Below, one piece after another: positions 5,671 through 38,180 of a stretch of DNA of 64,000 nucleotides. Every line of letters begins with the position of its first letter. Positions within the stretch are counted from its first letter, which is position 1. The DNA lies in contig JAOICL010000003.1 in NCBI GenBank assembly GCA_028131545.1, forward strand, positions 62,001-126,000, written 5' to 3'. The position numbers and the translations under genes are program-made. The DNA is from Vibrio sp. (GTDB taxonomy: Bacteria > Pseudomonadota > Gammaproteobacteria > Enterobacterales > Vibrionaceae). Below the pieces are notes generated by a model. The model did not search any database. It worked only from the letters and a program-made list of their open reading frames with translations, and was not told the origin of the DNA.

Positions 5671-6344
5671 ATTAGGTTCGCCTCTGTTGTATAAACGACT
5701 TGAGGGTAAACCATCAAGCTTTGTAGTTCTTTTACGAGTTGCTCTGATACGTTCTTCACATTATCAGGGCCATTGAGATCCGTTAATTGTACCATTTCCA
5801 TTCCCGCATAACCGCATGGATTAATACGTAGAAATGGCGTTAAATCCATATTGATATTGAGTGCCAAACCATGAAAGGAACACCCTTTACGTATACGCAA
5901 ACCGAGAGAGCATATTTTTTTATTATCAACGTAGACTCCCGGTGCATCTGGTCTTGCTGCCGAATGAACACCATAGTGGTTGAGCGTATTAATAACGGTA
6001 TTTTCAATATGGGTAACTAGATCGCGTACGCCGACCTTTTTACGTTTTAAATTAACAAGAATATAAGCAATTAATTGCCCTGGACCATGATAGGTCACTT
6101 GACCACCACGATCGGTTTGCACGACAGGTATCTCACCAGTGTTGAGTAGGTGCTCTGTTTTACCTGCCTGTCCTTGTGTAAAAACAGGATTATGCTCGAC
6201 TAACCAAACTTCATCAGCAGTATCTTCTGTTCTTGAATCGGTAAAGCGATGCATCGCCTTCCAAATAGGTTCATAGTCTTGTAAACCTAAATGACGCACA
6301 ATTAATTGCTCAGACATCTTCCTTCCTAATGTCATGTCTCTCAT
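5667..6344 (-). CDS. lipB: Octanoyltransferase
   Basis: [21 protein letters not shown] motif; overlaps lipA by 4 bp. Confidence 0.97.
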
Positions 6345-6371
6345 TGTTGAGAGATAAAGAGAACAAATGGC

Positions 6372-6650
6372 TTATAGAACCATTCTTACTATATCGATTT
6401 CGCCTAATTCTTTATAAAGCGTTTCAACTTGCTCTATTGACGTCGCTTGGATAGTCACTGACACGGAATTATAGTTACCTTTGGCGCTTGGCTTAATCGT
6501 TGGCGTATAGTCACCAGGTGCGTGCTTTTGAATGACAGCGATGACTTTTTCTGGTAACTCGGGTTTTGCGTAACCCATTACTTTATAAGTAAATTTACAT
6601 GGGAACTCGAGTAAGTCTTTTAATTTCGCGTCTGAATTGATGTTAAGCAT
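6372..6650 (-). CDS. ybeD: YbeD/DUF493 family protein
   Basis: 92 aa; [24 protein letters not shown]; position between lipB and dacA. Confidence 0.92.
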
Positions 6651-6810
6651 TATGGTTGCTCCAGATATAATGTTCTATCGCATTGATATTATGTTCTTTC
6701 AGTCACCTAGGTAATAGAGTGATATGAATGTTCAATGTGAGAGGCATAAGTCAATTAATTGGAGCAATACTAATGTTAAATGAAGGAATTCTCAAGGTGC
6801 ATATAAAAGA

Positions 6811-6835
6811 AAAGGGCCAGTTTAACTGGCCCTAT
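6811..6835 (-). terminator. Intrinsic terminator downstream of dacA
   Basis: aaagggccagtttaactggccct; T-rich on minus strand. Confidence 0.7.
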
Positions 6836-6871
6836 ATAATAAGCGTGATACCGCGCTATTTAATACCTTAT

Positions 6872-8047
6872 TTAGAATAGGCCTTTTACAAATAGGAAAA
6901 TATAGTCCCATAGGCGGCTAAATAGGCTACCTTGCTCTACATCTTCAAGGGCAAGAAGAGGGTACTCTGCAATATCTTCACCGTTAAGTTGGTAAAATAG
7001 TTTACCGACAACTTGGCCTTTTTGAATTGGCGCTTCCAGCTCTTGTTCAAGAACGAAACTGGCTTTTAAATTTTTTGCTTGTCCACGAGGGATCGTCACA
7101 TAAGTATCTTGGTCGACACCTAAAGAGACCGTGTCTTTATCTGCCATCCAAATCTTTTCACTAGCAAAGTTCTCACCTGCTTTGTGTGGAGCGACAGTTT
7201 CAAAGAAGCGGAAGCCATAGCTGAGCAGCTTTTTACTTTCTGCTTTACGTGCCGACTCGCTTTTTGTTCCCATCACAACAGCGACAAGACGCATGTCACC
7301 TTCTGTTGCTGAGCTGACGAGGTTATAACCGGCACCACTGGTATGACCCGTTTTGATGCCATCAACATTCATGCTTTTATCCCAAAGCAGACCGTTACGG
7401 TTATATTGACGGATACCGTTATAAGTAAACTCTTTTTCCGCATAGATGCGGTACTCATCGGGCACATCTTTAATTAACGCTCGACCTAACAGTGCCATAT
7501 CATAAGGTGTAGAATATAAATTATCGTTATCTAATCCATGCACATTGGCAAAGTTGGTGTTCGTCATGCCAATTTGCTGGCTCCACGCATTCATTAGGTC
7601 AACAAACGCATCTTCTGTTCCTGCAATGTGCTCAGCCATCGCAACACAAGCATCATTACCTGATTGAATGATAATACCACGATTTAAATCATCAACAGAC
7701 ACCGTTGTGCCGACTTCGATGAACATTTTTGATGAGTCTGGAAATTGCTTCGCCCAGGCGTTTTTACTGATCGTAACTTCATCGTCGAGGGAGATATTAC
7801 CTTGCTCTAATTCTTGACCAATAACATAACTGGTCATCATTTTAGTTAAGCTCGCAGGAGACATCTTTGTGTGTGAATCTTTCTCTGCAATGACTTTGCC
7901 AGATTGAAAATCCATTAACACATAGCCCTTTGCTGCAATCTGTGGTGCATCGGGTACAACACTTGGCGCAGCATAAGAAGTGGTTGCAGTCGTTACAGTG
8001 AGTGCAATTGAAGTACTAAAAAGGGTATTTAAAACTTTTTTATTCAT
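6872..8047 (-). CDS. dacA: D-alanyl-D-alanine carboxypeptidase (PBP5/6)
   Basis: SPASLTKMMTSYV (SxxK), SGNDACVAMAEH, DGIKTGHTSGAGYNLVSSA (KTG). Confidence 0.96.
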   Translation of the reverse strand: MNKKVLNTLFSTSIALTVTTATTSYAAPSVVPDAPQIAAKGYVLMDFQSGKVIAEKDSHTKMSPASLTKMMTSYVIGQELEQGNISLDDEVTISKNAWAKQFPDSSKMFIEVGTTVSVDDLNRGIIIQSGNDACVAMAEHIAGTEDAFVDLMNAWSQQIGMTNTNFANVHGLDNDNLYSTPYDMALLGRALIKDVPDEYRIYAEKEFTYNGIRQYNRNGLLWDKSMNVDGIKTGHTSGAGYNLVSSATEGDMRLVAVVMGTKSESARKAESKKLLSYGFRFFETVAPHKAGENFASEKIWMADKDTVSLGVDQDTYVTIPRGQAKNLKASFVLEQELEAPIQKGQVVGKLFYQLNGEDIAEYPLLALEDVEQGSLFSRLWDYIFLFVKGLF

Positions 8048-19154: not shown

Positions 19155-19850
19155 ATGATTTTTAAAGTGTCACGTTATATGATGTTCTTTATGTGTTTGT
19201 TTTATTTTGAATATGCCATTTCACAATATGAATCAACATATTCTAATCAGGCTGATATATATATTGAAGGTGATGAACTGTATTATATAGGGGAAATTAG
19301 TGATGGGAGTGTTCTCCATACCTTAAGAATAATAGAACAGTCAGGTGATAATATTAAACGATTGTCTATAAATTCAGTAGGCGGGAGCATTGAAGGTGCC
19401 ATACATTTAGCATATTGGGTATATGAAAATAATATAGCCTTAACTGTTGATGAATTGTGCTTTTCATCTTGTGCTAATTATATCATACCCTCCTCACCTG
19501 ATGTCTATATTAAAAAGAATTCGATTGTTGGTTGGCATGGAGGAGCTACCTATAATAAACATTTAAATGTAGGTGTTATGGATGATGCTAAAAAAGAATA
19601 TTGGGATTATTTATCAGATAAAGAAAGGATATTTTTCGATGAAATAGGAGTGGATATAAAAATAACAGGGTATCCAACTATTGAAAGTCAAATGGATTGC
19701 ATGGTAAATAACCGTTACTTTGGTTGGTATTACAGTGAAATCCATTTAAAATCTATGGGTTTGAGAGATATAACATATGAAGGTGGTATATCAAATGAAT
19801 TTAATCATAATGGTCATATTATGAGGCTGTGCCTTTTTTCTCCTAAATGA
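19155..19850 (+). CDS. Secreted ClpP/SppA-fold-like protein (COG3904-like), copy A
   Basis: 231 aa with signal peptide; GGSIEGAIHLAYWVYENNI, CFSSCANYIIP, SIVGWHGGATYNK; 226-aa paralogue downstream. Confidence 0.7.
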   Translation: MIFKVSRYMMFFMCLFYFEYAISQYESTYSNQADIYIEGDELYYIGEISDGSVLHTLRIIEQSGDNIKRLSINSVGGSIEGAIHLAYWVYENNIALTVDELCFSSCANYIIPSSPDVYIKKNSIVGWHGGATYNKHLNVGVMDDAKKEYWDYLSDKERIFFDEIGVDIKITGYPTIESQMDCMVNNRYFGWYYSEIHLKSMGLRDITYEGGISNEFNHNGHIMRLCLFSPK

Positions 19851-20105: not shown

Positions 20106-20789
20106 ATGAGATTTTTATTTTTTTTTACTTTTTTTATTTCTGGTTGTATGACTTTTCCAGAAAAGTATTCCAATAATACAAAAGTTGAAATAAATGGAGG
20201 AGAACTTCATTTTTATGGTGAAATTGGTGATGGTGTTGTACTTCATGCCATTCATTTAGCTAATCGTTCAAAAGAGCCTATTGTTAAATTAGTTATTCAA
20301 TCTACTGGTGGAAGTATAGAAGGAGGAATTCATCTAGGGTATTGGGTATATGATAATAATATCAGTGTTGTAGTTGATAGATATTGTTTTTCTGCATGCG
20401 CTAATTATGTATTGCCAGCATCAAGGAATATACATATTAATAGCGATAGTGTTATAGGTTGGCATGGTGGGGCAACTTATTCTAAATATATATTGCCTGA
20501 GGGCTTGCCCGAGGATCTTGAAAGTTTTAAATCTTACTTATCTGATAAGGAAAAAAAGTTTTATGATGAAATTGGAGTAGATATTAAAATAACAGGATAC
20601 CCTACTTTACCCGAACAAGTTAACTGTATGCGAGATGAGTATAATGGCTGGTTTTATTCTGTTGAAAGTTTAAAGTTAATGGGAGTAAAAGACATAGTAC
20701 TAGAAGATGAGTATCTACATGGGAGTTTTTTTAATAAAAAAGGTCACTTGCCAAAGATGAACCTTTGTTTATCTAAACCTAAATTCTGA
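20106..20789 (+). CDS. ClpP/SppA-fold-like lipoprotein (COG3904-like), copy B
   Basis: 227 aa; lipobox FISGC; GGSIEGGIHLGYWVYDNNI, CFSACANYVLP, VIGWHGGATYSK. Confidence 0.7.
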   Translation: MRFLFFFTFFISGCMTFPEKYSNNTKVEINGGELHFYGEIGDGVVLHAIHLANRSKEPIVKLVIQSTGGSIEGGIHLGYWVYDNNISVVVDRYCFSACANYVLPASRNIHINSDSVIGWHGGATYSKYILPEGLPEDLESFKSYLSDKEKKFYDEIGVDIKITGYPTLPEQVNCMRDEYNGWFYSVESLKLMGVKDIVLEDEYLHGSFFNKKGHLPKMNLCLSKPKF

Positions 20790-35001: not shown

Positions 35002-36087
35002 ATGCAGGAATTGCGAATAGTATTAATAGTGGGTGGTTTATTGGCGATCGCGGCATTACTTTGCCATGGTTTTTGGACACACCGTAAACAAAATCAAATC
35101 AAATTTAAAAAAGCACCTCTAACCAATGTGGATACATCCGAGGTTAGAGCGAAAAGTGGGAAGAAAGGCTCTCAGGCAACAATAGAGTTACCTGAAGAAG
35201 TCGAGCAACCTAATGATCTCGACCTGTCTGAAAGCACTCAAGCGGCTGGGTTAATTTCATCACTGAAAAACAGAGATAAAAAAGAAGAAGTGATTCCAAG
35301 TATTACGACTGAATTTTTGGATGATGCTGATATATCGCTTAGCAAAAAGACAATCAAGCCGACAAGTGAAACTGTTGACGTTGAATCTCACGAGGTCACC
35401 CTACAAGAAGCACCAGCGAAGAATCATCAAGCGACGATTAAAAGTGATAGTCAGTTAGATATATCTGAGCCTGAAGCTTTTTCTGAACCAATGGTTTCAG
35501 TTGATCATACTGTTTTAGGATATGACACAGCTTTAGGCGATGATACAGATTTAGGAAATGACACAGCTTTAATTAGTGATACAGCCTTAACTGATGAAAT
35601 AGCGTCTGCTGATCACATACAACAGCCTGAAGCTAAAACGAAGGAATCTCCAAAGGATGAAGCACCTTTTGAGGTTATTGTCTTACATGTTCATGCCAAG
35701 GAATCTCAAGCACTAAATGGTGTGGAATTATTTGATAGCATGCGACGTAATGGATTAGTCTTTGGAGAAATGGACATATTCCATAGACATGTCGATTTAC
35801 ACGGAGCCGGTAAGGTACTGTTTAGTGTCGCTAATATCATGCAACCAGGTACATTTGGTTGCGATAATGCAGAAAGTTTCTCTACTTTAGGTTTGTCTTT
35901 CTTTATGACACTTCCAAGTTATGGCCGGTCGGATCTTAATTTTAAGATGATGCTTGAAACCGCAGAAAATATCGCAAACGATATGGATGCTATCGTTATG
36001 GATGAAGTGAGACAACCATTAACGCTTGATAAGATCGAGTTTATCCAAAATAAGATTGCAGATTTTACGGAAGTAGAAATGGCATGA
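35002..36087 (+). CDS. zipA: Cell division protein ZipA
   Basis: N-terminal TM MQELRIVLIVGGLLAIAALLCHGFWTHRK; long acidic linker; C-terminal FtsZ-binding domain. Confidence 0.96.
   Translation: MQELRIVLIVGGLLAIAALLCHGFWTHRKQNQIKFKKAPLTNVDTSEVRAKSGKKGSQATIELPEEVEQPNDLDLSESTQAAGLISSLKNRDKKEEVIPSITTEFLDDADISLSKKTIKPTSETVDVESHEVTLQEAPAKNHQATIKSDSQLDISEPEAFSEPMVSVDHTVLGYDTALGDDTDLGNDTALISDTALTDEIASADHIQQPEAKTKESPKDEAPFEVIVLHVHAKESQALNGVELFDSMRRNGLVFGEMDIFHRHVDLHGAGKVLFSVANIMQPGTFGCDNAESFSTLGLSFFMTLPSYGRSDLNFKMMLETAENIANDMDAIVMDEVRQPLTLDKIEFIQNKIADFTEVEMA
35521..35592 (+). repeat. In-frame 18-bp tandem repeat x4 in zipA linker
   Basis: YDTALG DDTDLG NDTALI SDTALT. Confidence 0.9.
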
Positions 36088-36117
36088 TTTTCAGATGAAA
36101 TGTGTTTATTTCTAACT

Positions 36118-36142
36118 AAAAGCTCCTACGGGGGCTTTTTTG
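36118..36142 (+). terminator. zipA terminator
   Basis: aaaagctcc-tacg-ggggctttttt. Confidence 0.8.
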
Positions 36143-36212
36143 TTACTCATCCTTTTTTTTAATAGAGAGCGAATCCAATGTGCTTGTGTTGCTCGTTTAT
36201 AGGAGATTGAAA

Positions 36213-38180
36213 GTGTTAAATATCAATTTTACACATGAGCAAATCGACGTTCTAAATCAATTAGATCGAGAAATTAACTCAGCCGAGTTAACTCAACTAT
36301 TTAAACATTCTGAGTTAGATGCAGGACAGTTAGATGTAGGAGAGTTAGAAACGGAAGAGTTAGTACTATTACTGACAGTATCCAATGCGCTCTATCGAGC
36401 CGGTGTCCCTGTCATATCTGATGAGCAATACGATTTATACATTTCGATGCTTGTCACGATGAATCCTATTCATCCCTATTTGCATACAGTGGAACCAGAA
36501 GTGGTTGCGGAAGCAAAAACCGTTGAGCTGCCACAAAGAATGCTATCTACGGAAAAAGCTTATTCAAAGAATGACATTCAAAAATGGTTGAAACGAATTC
36601 TAAAGGCTGCTCAAGAAATCCATATCCCAGAAGAAGACATTGAATTAAGGGTCACCCCTAAGCTTGATGGATACGCTGCGTTTGATGATGGAACGACATT
36701 ATACACACGAGGTGATGGGTACCGAGGTCAAGATGTGACACGAGCATTTGTTCGAGGGTTAAAGGTAGCGAATGACGGTAGCAGAGGATTGGGCCCTGGA
36801 GAAATCGTCATTAAGAAAAGTTATTTTGATCGTGTATTGAGCGATGTTTTTGAAAACTCTCGTAATATTCAAGCGGGCATTATCGCTGAAAAGAAAATTG
36901 ATGAGAATGTACAAAGGGCGATTGATGAGGGGGCTTGTGTATTTTATCCATTTGCATTATTAGAGAATAAAACCGCTCATTTTTCTGACATCATGGATAA
37001 CTTTGACGCGATTGTTGATGAACTGTGGAGTGTGGTTGATTTTGATATTGACGGCATCATTCTTGAAACGACCCATGTTGATCTTAAAGAGTACATGGGA
37101 GCGACAAGAAAGAATCATCGCTGGCAGATTGCGTTTAAAGTAAATGAAGAGTCAACCCATGTTGAAGTGTTAAAGATTATTCCGCAAACCTCTAGAACAG
37201 GGCGTATTTCTCCTGTTGCTGAATTGGTTCCGACCAAACTAAGTGGTGCGACAATCAGTCGCGTTACCGTTCACCATTACAATATGGTTAAAACCAAAAA
37301 AATTGGTCCTGGCGCTGTTGTTCAATTGGTGAGAAGTGGGTTGGTGATACCAAAAATAGAAGAAGTGATAAAAGAAGCGGAGCCGCAACTCCCTGATGAA
37401 TGCCCAAGTTGTCATTCTTCTCTTTTGTGGGAGTCCGATCATTTGATTTGTCCAAACAAAAGTGATTGTCCAGCTCAAACAGAAAATACGTTAATTCATT
37501 TCTTTAAAACGTTAGGGAATAACGATGGTTTTGGTCCAAAGGTAATCGAAAAACTGAGTATTTTTGGTAAGAAACATATCCATGAGATTTATGATATTAG
37601 CGTGCATCAGTTTACGACGTATGGTTTTGGAGATAAAACGTCTCAAAACTTGTTTGACCAATTACAAGCAAGCAAAGACATTCAAATAGAAGATTGGCGC
37701 TTTTTGTCTGCCTTTGGGGTGAGTCGTTTAGGAGGAGGTAATTGTGAAAAACTCCTGCAGCATCATTCAGTGGTTGAGTTGTTTAGTTTGTCATCTGAAG
37801 ACATCATTAACATAGAGGGTTTTGCCCAAATTAGTGCTGAGGCGATCGTTGAAGGGTTATCGAATATTCGAGAAGAATTTTTTAAGGTTTATGAACTTGG
37901 TTTTAATTTAGCGAAGACGCCAAAACAATCGGAGAATAATAACTCAGATTCACCGATAGCAGGAACCATTGTGGTATTTACAGGTTCAATGCAACAAGGC
38001 TCTAGAGGCGATATGGAAAAGCATGCGAAATCTCTTGGTGCAAAGGTCGCAAAGTCAGTGACTGGCAAGACGACGTACTTAGTCACAGGGGAGAGAGTCG
38101 GTGAAGCGAAGACGAATGCAGCAAAAGAGAAAGGGGTTCAAGTGTTAACGGAACAAGAATATTTGAATTTAATCAACTAA
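36213..38180 (+). CDS. Divergent NAD-dependent DNA ligase (LigA-like; adenylation, OB, Zn-finger, HhH and BRCT domains)
   Basis: KLDGYAAFDDGTTLYTRGDG, FDIDGIILE, HRWQIAFKV, RTGRISPVA, CPSCHSSLLWESDHLICPNKSDCPAQ, BRCT GTIVVFTGSMQQGSRGDMEKHAKSLGAKV; GTG start at 36213 preceded by AGGAG. Confidence 0.85.
   Translation: MLNINFTHEQIDVLNQLDREINSAELTQLFKHSELDAGQLDVGELETEELVLLLTVSNALYRAGVPVISDEQYDLYISMLVTMNPIHPYLHTVEPEVVAEAKTVELPQRMLSTEKAYSKNDIQKWLKRILKAAQEIHIPEEDIELRVTPKLDGYAAFDDGTTLYTRGDGYRGQDVTRAFVRGLKVANDGSRGLGPGEIVIKKSYFDRVLSDVFENSRNIQAGIIAEKKIDENVQRAIDEGACVFYPFALLENKTAHFSDIMDNFDAIVDELWSVVDFDIDGIILETTHVDLKEYMGATRKNHRWQIAFKVNEESTHVEVLKIIPQTSRTGRISPVAELVPTKLSGATISRVTVHHYNMVKTKKIGPGAVVQLVRSGLVIPKIEEVIKEAEPQLPDECPSCHSSLLWESDHLICPNKSDCPAQTENTLIHFFKTLGNNDGFGPKVIEKLSIFGKKHIHEIYDISVHQFTTYGFGDKTSQNLFDQLQASKDIQIEDWRFLSAFGVSRLGGGNCEKLLQHHSVVELFSLSSEDIINIEGFAQISAEAIVEGLSNIREEFFKVYELGFNLAKTPKQSENNNSDSPIAGTIVVFTGSMQQGSRGDMEKHAKSLGAKVAKSVTGKTTYLVTGERVGEAKTNAAKEKGVQVLTEQEYLNLIN
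36312..36371 (+). repeat. In-frame 15-bp tandem repeat (~4 units) in ligase N-terminus
   Basis: gagttagatgcagga / cagttagatgtagga / gagttagaaacggaa / gagttagtactatta (ELDAG QLDVG ELETE ELVLL). Confidence 0.85.

Follow-up and report, generated by a model that had tools for sequence, protein, structure and literature searches.

A foreign NAD-type DNA ligase in the ligA slot of a Vibrio, probably descended from the cargo of a ligA-targeting island

The swap of an essential single-copy replication gene in its own locus is hard to explain without a viable intermediate. The window analysed here, a stretch of 64,000 nucleotides from Vibrio sp. (assembly GCA_028131545.1, contig JAOICL010000003.1, positions 62,001 to 126,000), poses this problem: directly after zipA, the fixed left neighbour of ligA, stands a gene for a NAD-type DNA ligase of full architecture that is far from ordinary LigA. 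A preliminary description of the locus had called the gene divergent and considered whether it was a neofunctionalised LigA, a specialised second ligase beside a canonical one, or the sole ligase with a remodelled pocket. Where did this gene come from, and what became of ligA?

The ligase of the window and its active site

The gene starts with a GTG at 36213, preceded by AGGAG at 36201-36205, and a family alignment agrees on this start; its frame is open from 36180 and its stop codon ends at 38180. The product has the Ia-NTase-OB-Zn-HhH-BRCT architecture and the catalytic KxDG of the LigA fold family. Pfam recognizes the OB fold, the four-Cys zinc finger (weakly), BRCT and, again weakly, HhH and Ia; the adenylation domain (PF01653) scores 64.8 bits versus about 350 in ordinary Vibrio LigA, which bears out the divergence first noticed. 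The ligase stays below the cut-offs of both NCBIfam models, with 318.7 for TIGR00575 (cut-off 444.45) and 309.5 for PRK07956 (cut-off 369). Its AF2 model (mean pLDDT 82.7, pTM 0.48) matches E. coli LigA (2OWO) with an E value of 1e-31. With LigA as represented by TIGR00575 and the E. coli enzyme it shares the domain order, KLDG, GE, DG, K314, the four cysteines and the slot after zipA, at an identity of about 30% over the C-terminal 400 residues.

Residues were compared by alignment to E. coli LigA and checked across 54 chromosomal members of the family of surrogate ligases described below (Table 1). The three departures named in the preliminary description, E113 to T, H23 to R and R208 to A, are all real, as is the retention of the catalytic Lys, the KLDG Asp, R200 and the zinc cysteines; K290 to E, R277 to W and Y225 to F had been missed. 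NPRN is also changed, to NSRN. Kept in the window ligase are K115, D117, G118, E173, R200, D285, K314, Y22, D32, Y35, D36 and the four cysteines.

Across the 54 chromosomal relatives T113, R23, F225 and E290 are invariant; T113, E290 and R23 are therefore no sequencing errors. The catalytic Lys, D117, G118, E173, R200, D285, K314 and the four cysteines are kept by the same relatives. Of the NMN-binding residues of domain Ia, the window ligase keeps Y22, D32, Y35 and D36, whereas H23 is replaced by R. Such conservation of the catalytic core over the range of the family indicates that the surrogate is a working enzyme, which would seal nicks with NAD.

In LigA structures, E113 and K290 contact adenine. 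The surrogates make up a subfamily of NAD-type ligases whose adenylate pocket is altered (E113T, K290E) and which probably serves free-living bacteria as their only NAD-type ligase; through them the need for near-invariant LigA residues becomes testable.

Table 1 Features of the ligase locus in the window (residue numbers of E. coli LigA where so stated)
Feature	Position	Strand	Remarks
zipA, fixed left neighbour of ligA	35002..36087	+	Host-type
zipA-ligase gap	36088..36212	+	Terminator-like hairpin and T-run at about 36117-36143 (by eye)
Surrogate NAD-type DNA ligase, 655 aa, in the ligA slot	36213..38180	+	ORF, domains, family alignment
R62 at E. coli H23 (domain Ia, NMN side)	36396..36398	+	R in 54/54 chromosomal members
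T148-P149-K150, E113 to T with catalytic Lys115 kept	36654..36662	+
A225 at E. coli R208	36885..36887	+	A 39, K 13, R 1, S 1 among 54
W272 at E. coli R277	37026..37028	+
E285 at E. coli K290, motif IV DGVVIK to DGIILE	37065..37067	+	E in 63/63 members
GLVIP at the place of canonical GDVIP	37338..37352	+	GAYGT target core of the island absent
Four-Cys zinc finger (C397, C400, C413, C419)	37401..37469	+

Elsewhere in the window, 19155-19850 and 20106-20789 encode tandem paralogous secreted or lipoprotein-like proteins of ~230 aa with a common SxCANY...GWHGG motif.

Islands between two halves of ligA

At ten loci, one of them in Vibrio G003, a 5' fragment of canonical ligA lies between zipA and the surrogate. 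A search with E. coli LigA located the 3' part, usually codons about 370-671, elsewhere in nine relatives. In Photobacterium aquimaris, Vibrio G003, Marinomonas rhodophyticola and two Acinetobacter it lies on the same contig, 16-35 kb further downstream. Idiomarina retains an eroded piece of 120 residues, about 10 kb downstream, whereas in M. lutimaris, Pseudoalteromonas luteoviolacea B and Colwellia psychrerythraea the 3' part is on a different contig. In a MAG (L089) the 5' part alone was found; there and in P. luteoviolacea B the 5' fragment ends near codon 338, and the original junction has therefore been lost. Assembly error was considered for the split genes and rejected, as the split recurs across hosts, including a complete Acinetobacter chromosome and a Vibrio assembly of three contigs.

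The order within the island is ligA 5', surrogate, cargo, four recombination genes and ligA 3', over 16-35 kb where complete. At the left end the surrogate comes first, separated from the broken ligA upstream by 11-97 bp. The recombination genes form an operon on the opposite strand that begins at the right end and comprises T (708-1026 aa), L (about 660 aa), S (about 175 aa, a coiled coil by eye) and R (about 451 aa). R and L both retain the residues typical of tyrosine recombinases (R, HxxR, H, Y). The cargo includes type I restriction systems (in Photobacterium and, with genes assigned by eye, in Acinetobacter), the candidate defence families PDC-S06, PDC-S20 and PDC-M68, and CBASS together with Gabija in M. 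rhodophyticola. In this last island (L181, 5165-18544) the CBASS operon encodes a cyclase, E2/E1-like and JAB proteins and is joined by two Gabija-type helicases, with further, unassigned ATPase genes nearby.

At the left end the sequence is GGYGAYGT(G/A)-RGTGTCACC, at the right end GTGACACYYY-GAYGTN-ATHCC. Common to both is the core GAYGTN, the Asp-Val of the LigA GDVIP motif, and (R)GTGTCAC constitutes the terminal inverted repeats. Both patterns are found a single time, where expected, in 5/5 complete islands; attL is present in 8 genomes and attR in 6 islands. The attL and attR cores differ in four of the six islands, always as synonymous GAYGTN: GACGTG/GATGTT in Vibrio G003, GATGTA/GATGTG in A. 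colistiniresistens, GATGTA/GATGTT in A. KCTC 92772 and GACGTG/GATGTG in M. lutimaris. An automatic search for direct repeats at the junctions returned chance repeats alone; the short GAYGT core emerged on comparison with intact ligA.

When the flanks were joined in silico, all four islands tried gave an uninterrupted LigA (672, 671, 677 and 676 aa), alignable with E. coli LigA over the whole length at 49-64%. It is the same gene, at the same codons, that is interrupted in different hosts, as in a site-specific integrative island. The surrogate reads GLVIP at this place, and GGYGAYGT is absent from 8/8 surrogates examined, which should render it immune to the element.

The R recombinase goes together with the split gene. 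It is found in 1/228 Vibrio genomes, the one with split ligA, and in 8/36 other carriers, all counted as split; Photobacterium alginatilyticum is included among these on the strength of an attL half-site at a contig start and the recombinase. The totals are 9/11 split and 0/32 unsplit carriers (Fisher p 1e-7, relatedness ignored), or 8/10 and 1/33 without P. alginatilyticum as a split case (p 3e-6, relatedness likewise ignored). The two split carriers without recombinase are a MAG and the eroded Idiomarina island. Two Acinetobacter species share surrogate DNA at 100% and recombination genes at 99.2% identity, against 72.6% for their ligA 5' halves, 73-81% for the host ligA halves and 81% for zipA; this points to recent transfer between species.

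Elsewhere the islands are found in decay. In Idiomarina the recombinases and most of the ligA 3' half are gone. Colwellia ponticola has a ligA 5' pseudogene full of stop codons ahead of the surrogate, and Catenovulum agarivorans a 53-residue ligA remnant. In Vibrio G237 (two contigs) the last 30 ligA codons survive on the same strand, about 860 bp past the surrogate. In Vibrio G237, G181 and G148 the surrogate is preceded by sequence of the island left end, as judged by eye. No island remnants were found with the family ligase of Methylococcaceae, where it follows zipA, or of SUP05; these lineages could have gained it another way.

Origin of the window gene

When GTDB genomes were scanned, the family turned up at 55 loci in many Gammaproteobacteria families and one Desulfuromonas MAG, most of them directly after zipA. 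The ligase is present in 5/368 other sampled gammaproteobacterial genomes and in 17/394 other genomes of the order, 13 with the chromosomal type (60%-plus) and 4 with the plasmid type. Among 228 Vibrio genomes, six (G013, G148, G181, G196, G237 and G003) have a gene 66-70% identical to that of the window. The Desulfuromonas ligase (L126, JAGGYC010000010.1) is 52% identical, by transfer beyond Gammaproteobacteria or through a binning error. Streamlined SUP05/Thioglobus-like genomes (L138, L135, L142, L193, L195) hold family ligases of 48-50% identity.

A sister branch is formed by plasmid and ICE ligases named 'BRCT domain-containing protein' (for example on pNDM-116-14, pTK9001 and a Methylomonas plasmid), with E at K290 in 9/9. 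They are 34-45% identical to the window ligase and reside on large plasmids or an ICE, outside the ligA slot; G048, the one carrier of this type that was checked, still has a canonical LigA as well.

Family ligases with E at K290, annotated merely as BRCT or helix-hairpin-helix proteins, occur on 180-600 kb plasmids (including L080 (NC_013930.1), L081, L082, L083 and L084) of Vibrio, Shewanella, Photobacterium, Halomonas, Thioalkalivibrio and Methylomonas; on pTK9001 the gene is near type IV CRISPR csf genes. On the ICE-like segment of G048 (L035, G048:C70:76000-89000) the ligase gene spans 5760-7682, preceded by a separate 125-aa BRCT ORF and followed by a TraC-like gene. A scan of viral contigs yielded no relative, and therefore no viral source was found; a phage collection held solely canonical-like or T5-like ligases (29% or less), and GDVIP, R208 and K290 are all present in the KB12-38 phage ligase.

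In the tree, the window ligase falls in a set (99/92) with Colwellia, Paraferrimonas and Marinomonas, apart from the other Vibrio, and a single Vibrionaceae clade is rejected (AU p 0.0003). It is 81% identical to the ligase of Colwellia ponticola, its nearest relative, versus 69% to those of Vibrio. Its neighbours are Vibrio-like: cysK at 88.5%, ptsI at 86-87% and zipA at 48%, versus 33% for zipA of Colwellia and Paraferrimonas. By sequence, the window gene belongs to a ligase family of its own, which spreads horizontally; it took the place of the native ligA and did not arise from it by mutation.

We conclude, with a probability of about 0.84, that this gene encodes a complete NAD-type ligase of foreign origin, which now serves in place of LigA as the replicative ligase of the cell and descends from the cargo of a ligA-targeting island. 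The window is best read as the domesticated end state of such an island with its rescue ligase. A four-gene module with two catalytic tyrosine recombinases would integrate at the Asp-Val codons (GAYGTN) of GDVIP and cut ligA after the OB fold, with removal of the zinc finger, HhH and BRCT, which should leave the native LigA dead. The surrogate behind the truncated gene would then keep replication going, possibly from the ligA promoter, while defence genes ride behind it. Were excision to leave the empty site unrestored, as in the SE discussed below, the loss would be permanent and the cell tied to the surrogate. Later erosion of the recombinases, the cargo and both ligA halves would produce the zipA-surrogate arrangement of the window. 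No attachment-site scar, ligA fragment or recombinase was found in the window, nor attL or a trace of the canonical ligA 5' half in the gap between zipA and the ligase, and the island stage of the window therefore rests on its relatives.

The intermediates found in those relatives suggest how an essential gene may be swapped: a mobile element breaks it and brings the replacement. We think it likely that a distinct class of islands lands in an essential replication gene, carries a target-immune surrogate and turns integration into permanent dependence, and that repeated invasion and decay have replaced the replicative ligase in many gammaproteobacterial lineages, with the stages captured from intact ligA through split ligA with surrogate to surrogate only. 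For defence islands, this would amount to a strategy of selfish dependence.

Ordinary allelic exchange, in which a donor zipA-ligA segment with an already domesticated surrogate recombined in and no island ever entered the window lineage, is the foremost competing account, and we regard it as unlikely. It would fit the scarless locus and the position of the ligase after zipA in the nearest relatives as well; however, zipA and cysK of the window are Vibrio-like and only the ligase is foreign, crossover between flanks so diverged would not be easy, and other Vibrio retain island scars.

Within the island reading, the truncated LigA (about 390 codons) might still work, alone or with the surrogate, whose role would then be defence or repair of element DNA. 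The fragment is indeed open, with intact NTase motifs, in several genomes, but it has no zinc finger, HhH or BRCT, is frameshifted in M. rhodophyticola, survives before the surrogate of C. ponticola as a stop-riddled pseudogene and is gone in most carriers, which keep the surrogate. A working fragment is thus very improbable.

Slimmer still are the chances of the specialised second ligase, with a canonical LigA hidden in the missing 27% of the genome. The assembly of the window (2.77 Mb) is 73% complete, and the gene at 36213..38180 is the only NAD-type ligase found in it; the search for a canonical LigA elsewhere in the assembly returned none. Against a second ligase speak 12 unsplit carriers searched, all without canonical LigA: five Vibrio (G013, G148, G181, G196 and G237, all 99-100% complete), in which the surrogate is the only NAD ligase and occupies the same slot, and seven carriers beyond Vibrio (Paraferrimonas, Colwellia, Marinomonas, Catenovulum, Pseudoalteromonas, Alteromonas and Pleionea), in which it is likewise the only NAD-type ligase. 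The idea of a sole ligase with a remodelled pocket gains support from the same genomes. Motilimonas has an extra match with a 497-aa open frame besides its surrogate. A small ATP-type ligase (PF01068, ~290-346 aa) occurs in the other Vibrio, both in those with a canonical ligA and in those without; we rejected it as the true replacement, since it is also present in the canonical-ligA control G021 and is therefore ancestral.

Fast divergence and neofunctionalisation of the native Vibrio ligA, the label first given to the gene, would agree with the unchanged slot and domain architecture but is hardly credible, since canonical LigA is separated from all 63 family members, which group together (100/100, branch 5.7), a split that places the window ligase, devoid of equivalents of E113 and R208, outside Vibrionaceae LigA, its nearest genes are in other families, and split ligA and surrogate coexist as separate genes, which refutes it.

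Comparison with known integrative elements

The island resembles the strand-biased circularizing integrative elements (SE) of gammaproteobacteria, median size 15.7 kb, in its two catalytic tyrosine recombinases (one of them large) with two accessory genes, its terminal inverted repeats, a core of about 6 bp and attL/attR spacers that often differ (PMC10214605). The same source describes a brought-in att spacer for SE and Tn554-type elements (PMC10214605), with which the differing attL and attR cores of the ligA island agree. Excision of SE is reported not to restore the empty site. The gene order is T-L-S-R in the ligA island and intA-tfp-intB-srap in SE, and the island targets ligA and carries a rescue copy. 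In an HMM comparison with the SE of pAQU1 only L resembles IntA/IntB, weakly (E 6e-6, 8e-4). Identity of the module with SE was rejected on this comparison and on gene order.

GInt elements (ginABCD, PMC5385486) also have a four-gene recombinase operon at one end, cargo and a conserved target gene; the targets reported for them, such as ssb ends, do not include ligA (PMC5385486). The small gene is third in transcription order in our island and last (ginD) in GInt, a distinction drawn from the published description. The Tn554 family and Tn552-II with tgl share with the island a multi-component recombinase and a brought-in att spacer, and tgl has been proposed to rescue the disrupted target gene (PMC12486829). 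These are Firmicute elements, however, with a yolD-like target rather than an essential replication gene and no known domestication of the surrogate. Homologous T-L-S-R modules, in the same order, are present on P. putida and P. aeruginosa plasmids (L207, NZ_CP133756.1 468445-474368; L206, NZ_CP047312.1), and the module therefore has relatives with other targets.

The Gamma-Mobile-Trio (GMT) islands (Mahata et al. 2024) are reportedly gammaproteobacterial too, with recombinase genes and defence cargo. They are said to be prevalent in Vibrio (PMC12039261), whereas the ligA-island recombinase is in 1/228 Vibrio genomes; this comparison is by description, and none of the NCBIfam matches of the island module bears a GMT name. 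A literature search, mostly among papers outside subscription, found none that names ligA as an integration target. Altogether, the kind of element is known in outline; what is new is that its target is essential and that it brings a surrogate, which has repeatedly been domesticated.
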